DNA of 64,000 bases, taken from assembly GCA_037721215.1 (NCBI GenBank), contig JBBJNV010000022.1, positions 1 to 64,000 of the forward strand, read 5' to 3'. Below are positions 39,886 to 43,365 of this stretch, piece after piece. The DNA is from Gemmatimonadaceae bacterium. GTDB taxonomy: Bacteria > Gemmatimonadota > Gemmatimonadetes > Gemmatimonadales > Gemmatimonadaceae. The position numbers and the translations under genes are program-made. How positions within the stretch are numbered: the stretch's first letter is position 1; every line of letters starts with the position of its first letter. A model generated the notes under the pieces. It made no database searches, was not told the DNA's origin, and saw only the letters and a program-made list of their open reading frames with translations.

Positions 39886-41182
39886 GAAGAGGCGCAGCAG
39901 CAAAGCGGCGGCGAGCCCACCCGCACCGCTGGCTGCTCAGGCCGATTCATCATTGTTGAGCTTTGCGGATCTTGGCCTTTTGCCAGCATTGCTGGATGCT
40001 GTGCGCGATGCGGGCTATTCGAGCCCCACGCCGATTCAGCAGCAGGCAATTCCACTGGCGTTGCACGGGCGCGATCTGATAGCGCTTGCCCAGACTGGCA
40101 CTGGCAAGACAGCCGGCTTCACATTGCCGATCATCCAGCGGCTCATCGAGGGAAATACCGACGGCGCGCCTGCCCACCGAGTCCGCGTTCTGATTCTGAC
40201 ACCGACGCGAGAGCTCTGCATCCAGGTGGAGGAGAGCTTTCGCAAGTACGGCAGGAACACGGACCTTCGCGTTCTGCCGGTTTTTGGAGGCGTCGGTGTC
40301 GAACCACAAACCCGGGAGCTCAGGAAGGGGATTGACGTCGTCGTGGCGACCCCGGGGCGTCTGATCGATCATATGGAACGCCAGAACGTGGTATTTGACG
40401 ATCTCGAAGTGCTGGTGCTCGATGAGGCAGATCGAATGCTCGACATGGGATTCGCACCGCAGCTGAACCGGATAGTGGCGGAGGTGCCGCGGTTCCGGCA
40501 GACACTGCTGTTCAGCGCGACGATGCCGCCCGAGGTCGAAGCGCTCGCCCGCAAATATCTGCGCAAGCCGATCGTGGTCCAGGTTGGCCGGAGGTCATCT
40601 GCTGCAAGCACAGTAACTCATGCCGTTTACCCTGTGCCGCGCGATCGCAAAACAGAGCTTCTCGCCGAGTTGTTGAAGGAAAAGGGTATGGACTCCGTTC
40701 TCATCTTCACCCGTACCAAGCATGGCGCCGACAAGGTGGTGCGCCATCTCGAAGGAAAGGGGATCAGCTCCACAGCGATGCATGCCGACAAGTCACAGAT
40801 CGACCGGATGCGCGCGCTCGAGGATTTCAAGAGTGGCGAAGTGCGCGTGCTCGTTGCAACCGACATAGCCCAGCGCGGCCTTGATGTATCGGGCATCAGT
40901 CATGTCATCAACTATGATGTTCCGCAGCAGCCGGAAGATTATGTCCATCGTATCGGTCGTACCGGGCGCGCCGCGGCCACCGGCGATGCGTTCACCTTCA
41001 TGTCCCCGGATGAGATCGCCATGGTGCGCTCGATTGAGCGGATTATTGGCGAGCCGATTCCCCGCATTTCGGTGCCGGGGTATGACTTCGGCTCCGTCGC
41101 CAGCGCGCCGGGGGCGGAAAGTGAAACTGAAGTGCGCGAAGCGCCGGTGATGATGTCCCGCGGCCGCCGGACTCGCCGCTAA
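39872..41182 (+). CDS. DEAD-box RNA helicase, RhlE-like
   Basis: 436 residues from the ATG at 39872; the upstream ORF extension is a shadow of the hydrolase. Motifs are complete: Q motif (YSSPTPIQQQAI), AQTGTGKT, PTREL, DEAD (VLDEADRML), SAT (FSATM), ATDIAQRGLDV and HRIGRTGRA. It has a shorter basic tail (SRGRRTRR) than the helicase at 20427. Expected role is RNA unwinding in ribosome assembly or mRNA decay. It ends convergently with the pseudopilin gene, overlapping by 4 bases. Confidence 0.9.
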   Translation: MTPVEKRRSSKAAASPPAPLAAQADSSLLSFADLGLLPALLDAVRDAGYSSPTPIQQQAIPLALHGRDLIALAQTGTGKTAGFTLPIIQRLIEGNTDGAPAHRVRVLILTPTRELCIQVEESFRKYGRNTDLRVLPVFGGVGVEPQTRELRKGIDVVVATPGRLIDHMERQNVVFDDLEVLVLDEADRMLDMGFAPQLNRIVAEVPRFRQTLLFSATMPPEVEALARKYLRKPIVVQVGRRSSAASTVTHAVYPVPRDRKTELLAELLKEKGMDSVLIFTRTKHGADKVVRHLEGKGISSTAMHADKSQIDRMRALEDFKSGEVRVLVATDIAQRGLDVSGISHVINYDVPQQPEDYVHRIGRTGRAAATGDAFTFMSPDEIAMVRSIERIIGEPIPRISVPGYDFGSVASAPGAESETEVREAPVMMSRGRRTRR

Positions 41183-41598
41183 TTCCGGACCCGGCCGAGC
41201 CGGGATACGTAGATCGTGTCGGCAGCGTCATTGCGCTGAACCGTCATCGTGAAGTTGGCCGCACCGTATCCCACGCCGATCGGCGAATAGGTAATAGAGG
41301 CGCGGTTGGTGGTGATCCCCACGCCATGTGCCGCTGATATTTCGCGAATCGCCACGGTGTCCGCCTCGACGCGCACTACGATTATACCGCGGCCCGTATC
41401 GATCTCGAGCGTTGCCCGCGCGCCACGCACGATGGCGGCGTGGCGCGCGGTAGAGAACAGGGCAGCTATCTCAGTGACTGCTCCGCGCACCTGAATACGA
41501 TCGATGAACCCGCTCGCGCGCGGAAGCGTGACTGCCGCGACAATGGCAACGAGCGCGAGTGCAATTACCATCTCGATGAGATTGAAGCCCTGGCGCAT
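41179..41598 (-). CDS. Isolated type IV pilin-like protein (GspH/FimT type)
   Basis: 139 residues with a prepilin leader: MRQGFNLIEM and the hydrophobic helix VIALALVAIVAAVTL, cleaved after Gly before FNLIE by a prepilin peptidase. The rest is beta-rich (TARHAAIVRGARATLEIDTG), as in GspH/FimT minor pseudopilins. No pilus or secretion genes are adjacent, so it may work with a system elsewhere. The start is at 41598 with the leader intact. Confidence 0.75.
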   Translation of the reverse strand: MRQGFNLIEMVIALALVAIVAAVTLPRASGFIDRIQVRGAVTEIAALFSTARHAAIVRGARATLEIDTGRGIIVVRVEADTVAIREISAAHGVGITTNRASITYSPIGVGYGAANFTMTVQRNDAADTIYVSRLGRVRN

Positions 41599-41746
41599 CC
41601 ATCCACTCCTGGGGTTTGGAGGGATTTAGCCAATACCGCTGATTTAATGTCACCATCCCATCGCGCGGGGGCGCGCCGTGCTGCATCTTGAAAACCGCCC
41701 CCGGTTCGTTCGGACATCCCCTTTTCTCCTGTATCCTGCCGCGACG

Positions 41747-41977
41747 ATGAATATTTCGATCGAATACTGTACCGTTTGAAACTATGAACCCCGAGCCACC
41801 GGTCTGGTGGCTGAAATAACCAAACGCTACGCTGATGCCATCGTGACGCTGATTGCTTCGCACGGAGGCAGATTCGAAGTTCTGCTGGATAGCGTGCCAA
41901 TTTTCGAGAAGTCGAAGCTCGGGCGACACGCAAAGCCCGGGGAGATTCTTATGTTGATGGAGTCACGTGCAAGCTAG
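41747..41977 (+). CDS. SelW-like selenoprotein (Rdx family), in-frame UGA = Sec
   Basis: 76 residues. Codon 11, TGA at 41777-41779, falls in the motif EYC-T-V-U-NYEPRA, the C-x-x-U redox site of SelW/SelT/SelH-type Rdx proteins. Reading through the TGA gives an intact frame with the family's C-terminal half: GGRFEVLLDS, PIFEKSKLGRHAKPGEIL, then TAG at 41975. A bacterial SECIS-like hairpin begins 14 bases after the TGA. The fold is thioredoxin-like with an assumed thiol/selenol redox role. Standard ORF callers miss it. There is no strong Shine-Dalgarno before the ATG, so the start is slightly uncertain. Confidence 0.88.
41794..41812 (+). promoter_or_regulatory. Bacterial SECIS element
   Basis: A 7-bp perfect stem, AGCCACC with GGTGGCT, and a 5-base loop GGTCT, located inside the reading frame. 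The loop matches the GGUCU loop of the E. coli fdhF SECIS as I recall it, and the loop lies 21 bases after the UGA (18 in fdhF). It is the expected SelB recruitment site. Confidence 0.82.
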
Positions 41978-42129
41978 GCGCGCAAGCGTCCATTACTCGA
42001 TCAGAAAGTGTCCCTGTCGGGAGACATACCTGGCCAGCCAATGAGGCAACACAAGTTGCTAAGTCGATGCCCAGCAACGATATGTGTATTCCCGGCCAAC
42101 TGGCACCCCTCCTGCAAATAGAGGTCATC

Positions 42130-42516
42130 ATGAGAATCTTCACGTTCTCGCGGGTGACTGCGGGAAAGATCAATAGATGGCGTTTCGCCCTCTTCGGTGC
42201 CGGGATTCTGGCGTTGGGGAGCGAGGCGGGCGCTCAAGGCTTTCCGCGAGGACTCCCCCGGGGGATTCCCGGTGGATTTCCTCAGTATGAGCAAGGTGTG
42301 CCAGCCGCTTATCGCCCACCTGCCGGCATGTGCCGGATCTGGATTGACGGCGTTCCTGCGGGTCAGCAGCCAGCTCCAACCGACTGTGTTACGGCTGTGC
42401 GCAATCGTCCGGCTAACGGCACTGTGATTTTCGGCGAAGATGTTCGCCGCCGTGGAAAGGACAAGCCAAAGAAAGGCAAGTCCGACAAGGACGATTCGTC
42501 CACCCCTGGTTATTAA
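42130..42516 (+). CDS. Secreted protein with CRIWIDGVP motif (small paralogue)
   Basis: 128 residues with an N-terminal signal peptide (FALFGAGILALGSEAGA) and a Pro/Gly/Arg segment. The motif PPAGMCRIWIDGVPAGQQP ends in PTDC, giving C68 and C86 spaced 18 apart, possibly a disulfide. A Lys/Asp-rich tail follows. The same motif, with the same Cys spacing, occurs in the next gene 12 bases downstream, so the two are paralogues in one operon. Function unknown; an extracellular or envelope role is inferred from the signal. Confidence 0.65.
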   Translation: MRIFTFSRVTAGKINRWRFALFGAGILALGSEAGAQGFPRGLPRGIPGGFPQYEQGVPAAYRPPAGMCRIWIDGVPAGQQPAPTDCVTAVRNRPANGTVIFGEDVRRRGKDKPKKGKSDKDDSSTPGY

Positions 42517-42528
42517 CGGAGAATCAAC

Positions 42529-43365
42529 ATGAGGCGCTATTCAATTGTACTTGGACTCGTCGCGGCGACCGCGGCCACTGCACCGCTCGATGCCCAGGGC
42601 AGAGGTCGTAACGTTGACGGAATTCCACCGGGCCAGTATCCACCCGCCGGACTGTGCCGCATCTGGATCGACGGCGTTCCGCCAGGCAGACAGCCTCGCC
42701 CTACCGACTGCACTACTGCAGAGAGGAACCGGCCCCGGAATGCGCGGGTGATTTACGGCAGCAACACGCGGAACAACGATCGTCCTTACGATCGGAACGG
42801 AGACGGACGGATCGATGATCGTGACCGCGTATACGATCGCAATCGCGACGGGCGTATCGACGACCGCGACCGTGTTTACGATCGCAACCGTGACGGCCGG
42901 ATCGACGATCGCGATCGCAATGGGAGCAACAACGGCAGCAACGGGCCGTGGTGGGATCCCAATCGAAGCGGATCGGATAATCGCAACGACGGCGAATGGC
43001 GCCAGGAAGGCACCGACGGCAATGGTAATCGTATCTACGTTCGCCGCCGCGTTGACTCCAATGGCAGCGTTACCCTCGAGCGCGCACGACGCGATTCGTT
43101 TGGAAGGTATATCGTAGTCGACCGGCAGGTTCTGGGTCGTGACGGGCAGCACGGCAACGATGTCCGCCGTGACCAGAACGGAAACGTCATCTACCGGGAT
43201 CGTGACCGGGACAATGATGGCCGACGGAATTCCCGCGATCCATGGATCGACAGGGACCGCGACGGCCGGGACGATGACAATGACCGCCGGGTAGACCGGG
43301 ATCGCGACGGACGCGACGACCGTTCCAAGAAGGCAAAAAAAGAAAAGAAGAACAAGAACAAGTAG
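42529..43365 (+). CDS. Secreted protein with CRIWIDGVP motif and Asp-rich Ca2+-loop-like repeats
   Basis: 278 residues with a signal peptide (SIVLGLVAATAATAPLDA). The N-terminal domain repeats the Cys motif of its neighbour (GLCRIWIDGVPPGRQPRPTDC, C43 and C61). Then follow three 15-residue tandem units resembling dockerin/EF-hand loops (DRNGDGRIDDRD), and more Asp/Arg-rich sequence. The C-terminus is Lys-rich (KKAKKEKKNKNK). Calcium binding is inferred from the D-x-N-x-D-G-x-I-D-D pattern. A rho-independent terminator follows. Confidence 0.68.
   Translation: MRRYSIVLGLVAATAATAPLDAQGRGRNVDGIPPGQYPPAGLCRIWIDGVPPGRQPRPTDCTTAERNRPRNARVIYGSNTRNNDRPYDRNGDGRIDDRDRVYDRNRDGRIDDRDRVYDRNRDGRIDDRDRNGSNNGSNGPWWDPNRSGSDNRNDGEWRQEGTDGNGNRIYVRRRVDSNGSVTLERARRDSFGRYIVVDRQVLGRDGQHGNDVRRDQNGNVIYRDRDRDNDGRRNSRDPWIDRDRDGRDDDNDRRVDRDRDGRDDRSKKAKKEKKNKNK
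42787..42918 (+). repeat. Three tandem 45-base coding repeats
   Basis: Three consecutive copies of a 15-codon unit (about YDRNGDGRIDDRDRV; the third is one codon shorter), differing mainly at silent or near-silent positions. It lies within the secreted Asp-rich protein and explains a run of D-x-N-x-D-G-like loops. Confidence 0.85.

Follow-up and report, generated by a model that had tools for sequence, protein, structure and literature searches.

A SelW-like gene predicted to encode a selenoprotein through an in-frame UGA in a Gemmatimonadaceae genome

The window analysed here is the whole stretch of 64,000 nucleotides from a Gemmatimonadaceae bacterium, and it carries a short gene of the SelW-like (Rdx) family among the following features.

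41179..41598, minus strand: GspH/type IV-type pseudopilin, the divergent neighbour, found beside selW in many family members
41747..41977, plus strand: selW-like (Rdx) predicted selenoprotein gene, ATG to TAG, 76 residues, with selenocysteine (Sec) as residue 11
41777..41779, plus strand: in-frame UGA, predicted to be read as Sec (C8-x-x-U11); a conserved UGA, replaced by Cys (TGC) in one relative, genome G128
41794..41812, plus strand: putative bacterial SECIS-like hairpin inside the coding sequence, 7 bp, loop GGUCU at 41801-41805
42067-43365, plus strand: two adjacent small predicted secreted proteins with the common motif PPAGxCRIWIDGVPxGxQPxPTDC

The pseudopilin lies in the same divergent arrangement at all 19 sampled loci where a pilin was found, the window included, and it marks orthologous selW loci, with no functional link implied. 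The second of the two secreted proteins possesses YDRNxDGRIDDRDRV-type repeats, neither protein had an NCBIfam match, and relatives of the pair occur close to selW in several genomes.

The gene starts with the ATG at 41747, has TGA as its eleventh codon and stops at the TAG of 41975-41977, and its read-through product is MNISIEYCTVUNYEPRATGLVAEITKRYADAIVTLIASHGGRFEVLLDSVPIFEKSKLGRHAKPGEILMLMESRAS. A preliminary description of the locus had read the same 76 residues, with EYCTVUNYEPRA around the TGA, and had placed them in the Rdx family by their C-x-x-U site; our translation is identical, and the family assignment was borne out by profile searches with Cys replacing U, where the protein matched Pfam Rdx (PF10262) at 58.5 bits (cut-off, 22.6) and TIGR02174 CXXU_selWTH at 44.2 bits (cut-off, 34.2). 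The match to NF041051 SelTWH_Campy, at 87.5 bits, fell below the cut-off of 88, which leaves the protein outside that equivalog. The redox motif, C8-T-V-U11, is located near the N-terminus, as the Rdx family requires, and its C and U columns are invariant across the alignment of relatives (A1, with U written as C). Downstream of the UGA, the uncorrected ratio of nonsynonymous to synonymous change is 0.23-0.45. The plus-strand frame has no entry among the table-11 open reading frames of at least 80 residues. Two longer antisense frames overlap selW on the minus strand (41471-41929 and 41565-41933), and these were rejected as unsupported, the plus frame being the one with ratios of 0.23-0.45. 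Judging from the sequence, 41747-41977 is a genuine SelW-like (Rdx) gene and not a chance frame, as the profile matches and the presence of homologues in 191 of 395 genomes of the phylum attest.

In those 191 genomes, the in-frame TGA is found in all but one of the best copies listed, the exception being G128, with Cys; a Pfam Rdx search of the same 395 genomes likewise returned relatives that nearly all carry the UGA. The conserved UGA aligns with a Cys of homologues, as is expected of a bacterial selenoprotein. A higher-scoring Rdx group with no internal stop was found in five genomes (G363, G212, G052, G195 and G071) and apparently represents another Rdx subfamily. A scan of named genomes with A1 recovered only four distant relatives, in bins of Thermodesulfovibrionales, Nitrospira/Nitrospirales and Verrucomicrobiales, because the query had C replacing U, and a plasmid search returned distant Rdx genes only.

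Under the standard code, the gene would yield only a 10-residue peptide, as the preliminary description had pointed out while calling the downstream half conserved, a point that the ratios past the UGA bear out. The short peptide is what one would expect if the UGA were an ordinary stop, mutated from a Cys codon, in a frame that is now dead. We give such decay practically no chance, given that the UGA sits at the same codon phylum-wide, that purifying selection acts on both sides of it, that the Sec machinery is intact and that the hairpin following the UGA covaries. A sequencing error at the UGA was also considered and was rejected on conservation and on the machinery searches.

These searches were made in the source genome, which is 3.5 Mb in size and 96.6% complete. 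All four genes called for by a bacterial selenoprotein were found: selC, encoding a tRNA-Sec with anticodon TCA (70.5 bits; gathering score, 47), selB (341 bits; cut-off, 242), selA (527 bits; cut-off, 268) and selD (362 bits; cut-off, 125). The selD gene has an in-frame stop of its own.

L050:1501-2538 (G000:C32:30493-31530): selD, with one in-frame TGA within the active-site motif ARCAGUASKMGP

The position of this TGA in the active-site motif makes SelD of the source genome itself a predicted selenoprotein. The selD UGA is followed by a hairpin with a CGGGU loop, with a fold stability no better than that of shuffles. On contig C32, no more than about 10 bases separate the stop of selD from the start of the tRNA-Sec gene. 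A profile search of the source genome gave no match above cut-off for a formate dehydrogenase alpha subunit, and a covariance-model scan of it revealed no convincing second site of the selW hairpin type, the next matches scoring 16 bits or less as compared to 57.8 for the selW hairpin and the four inspected ones having no TGA where Sec would be encoded. Because the model is fitted to SelW and does not pick up the SelD hairpin, the scan is no proof against additional selenoproteins.

Across the phylum, selB co-occurs with the gene in 173 of the 191 gene-bearing genomes at a threshold of E <= 1e-62 (odds ratio 8.4, Fisher p = 5e-17, a value that is too small since the genomes are related by descent). 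Among the 18 gene-bearing genomes without selB at this threshold, tRNA-Sec was found in 14 and SelA in 13; only two had neither, namely G128, with its Cys, and G052, where the strong Rdx match has no internal stop. The absence of selB in the remaining genomes is best read as reflecting gaps in drafts. The preliminary description had supposed that the organism decodes Sec and had named selA, selB, selD and tRNA-Sec as the genes to look for; a genome without selB or tRNA-Sec, or relatives that all carry Cys without a SECIS, was to count against it. The opposite was found, with all four genes present, relatives that nearly all carry UGA and a covarying hairpin, and the supposition is supported accordingly.

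Only the nucleotide sequence is known here, and a UGA could in principle be decoded as an amino acid other than Sec, by a change in the code or by near-cognate readthrough. This is highly improbable in our estimation: the UGA occupies the position of the redox Cys of homologues and a SECIS-like hairpin then follows, adjacent genes read normally under table 11, and a tRNA-Sec with the matching anticodon, TCA, is present.

The bacterial SECIS is described as a stem-loop just 3' of the UGA, its small apical loop containing a G (PMC1088965), and the selW hairpin fits this description. In the window, it folds at -12.9 kcal/mol (z = -2.8). Across 63 distinct UGA sequences from related genomes, 94.1% of the helix cells are paired; three pairs are changed on both sides, in 33 double-change cells (for example, ACC/GGT and TCC/GGA), and the covariation score is 0.252, as compared to 0.026-0.095 for partners slid by 1-3 columns; these figures overstate independence, as related genomes share ancestry. 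Pairing is lost at columns 18-36 in 10 of the 63 sequences and at columns 22-32 in 13 of them. Of 69 copies, all but one have AGT, GGT, AGG or GGG as the loop codon. A search of Rfam found no family matching the hairpin. The SECIS loop of E. coli fdhF also contains GGUCU. Among the 1,850 TGA triplets on both strands of the window, the selW TGA alone precedes a 7-bp helix and an RGK loop at its spacing, although this geometry was defined on selW itself and the uniqueness is descriptive.

Both the conserved protein sequence in this region and the GC-rich genome would allow the hairpin to arise as a mere by-product of encoding a conserved RAxxLAAE helix in GC-rich codons, with SelB recruited by another signal. 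Codon usage speaks against this, since the 3' arm uses GCG for its Ala in 60 of 65 cases, versus 124 of 302 in the rest of the gene (Fisher p = 3.5e-15), and uses only CTG or TTG for its Leu; the compensatory changes noted above speak against it too. We regard a by-product as very unlikely; the GCG skew shows the RNA to be under constraint beyond that of the protein.

The selW loci of two relatives are as follows.

L113 (G128:C1:2893000-2901500): G128 selW locus, with Cys at the Sec site, syntenic with the window
L086 (G121:C155:9300-10600): G121 selW, of the UGA type, with an altered hairpin loop

G128 is a complete, single-contig genome of genus g2, in which eight other members have the SelW gene together with selD of the UGA type, and it serves as a natural control. 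Its locus shares with the window a hydrolase, a DEAD-box helicase, the divergent pseudopilin, selW and a small secreted protein. The codon at its Sec site is TGC, selA, selB, selC and selD were all absent at the thresholds used, the hairpin loop has GCG in place of RGU, and this region shows no more folding stability than shuffled sequences. This pattern is what a true Sec codon predicts and what a decayed gene or a sequencing error does not; moreover, a Cys in the relative that lacks Sec machinery argues against decoding as another amino acid, and the loss of the loop in this same relative argues against a by-product hairpin. In G121, a draft that is 93% complete, the UGA is kept, the loop codon is GCG and not RGK, a tRNA-Sec is present and SelD is free of in-frame stops; neither selA nor selB was found in this draft. 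G121 may represent a Sec system in decay or simply a draft gap. It is conceivable, though doubtful, that the SelW-like protein, together with a Sec-type SelD, is the main reason for this lineage to keep its Sec system, with the replacement of Sec by Cys in SelW going along with loss of selA, selB, selC and selD. This reading draws on the lack of a formate dehydrogenase alpha match above cut-off and on G128 as its example.

Taken together, the gene almost certainly encodes a SelW-like (Rdx) thioredoxin-fold oxidoreductase whose UGA at 41777 is read as Sec by means of SelA, SelB, SelD and the hairpin. SelA and SelD would produce Sec-tRNA-Sec, and SelB would bind the mRNA hairpin just 3' of the UGA and bring the charged tRNA to the ribosome, where the UGA would be decoded as Sec and translation would continue to the TAG at 41975. 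We infer both the insertion of Sec at residue 11 and the binding of the hairpin by SelB from sequence. By analogy with the family, the Cys8-x-x-Sec11 pair would then perform reversible thiol/selenol redox chemistry.

No new mechanism is revealed by these results. What they add is a well-supported, phylum-wide set of Sec-encoding SelW genes, which would be interrupted at the UGA by standard gene callers, along with a clean SECIS consensus for the phylum. They also provide a natural experiment within one genus, Cys for Sec with loss of the machinery, that bears on why bacteria retain or abandon selenocysteine.

Comparison with known structures points to the same family. AlphaFold2 models of ten relatives (mean pLDDT 95) show the thioredoxin-like Rdx fold, with the predicted C-x-x-U in the loop that joins strand 1 (2-8) to helix 1 (14-27), a placement shared with thioredoxin-fold redox proteins. 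The best PDB matches were the SelW-related 2fa8, 2obk, 2oka, 2p0g, 2ojl and 3dex (query TM 0.83-0.89), followed by human MIEN1 and then, at lower significance, by mouse SelW. The proteins from Agrobacterium (2fa8), Vibrio (2p0g) and Pseudomonas (2obk) share the fold (TM 0.84-0.88) at about 26-36% identity; their chains are somewhat longer than the window protein, and 2fa8 and 2p0g have CxxC where it has CxxU. Mouse SelW (2npb) shares the fold class, but only 15% identity. The mouse protein has CxxU, and the eukaryotic SECIS sits in the 3' UTR. The SelT/SelW/SelH family (seleno)protein model NF041051 was matched over nearly its full length, half a bit below cut-off. A literature search on Gemmatimonadota and selenoproteins found nothing on the SelW-like family. 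Bacterial SelW-like selenoproteins of pfam10262 share with the window gene the family, the CxxU and a UGA with downstream SECIS, and the papers on them deal with lineages other than the window's phylum (PMC1088965, PMC1794560, PMC9312934). CxxU SelW-like proteins outnumbered every other selenoprotein family in the Sargasso Sea set in 2005 (PMC1088965); a 2006 paper lists them for several bacteria (PMC1794560), and a 2022 review includes them under pfam10262 with CxxU (PMC9312934). The SelW-like family has been known since 2005, and the window gene is a well-supported additional member of it.
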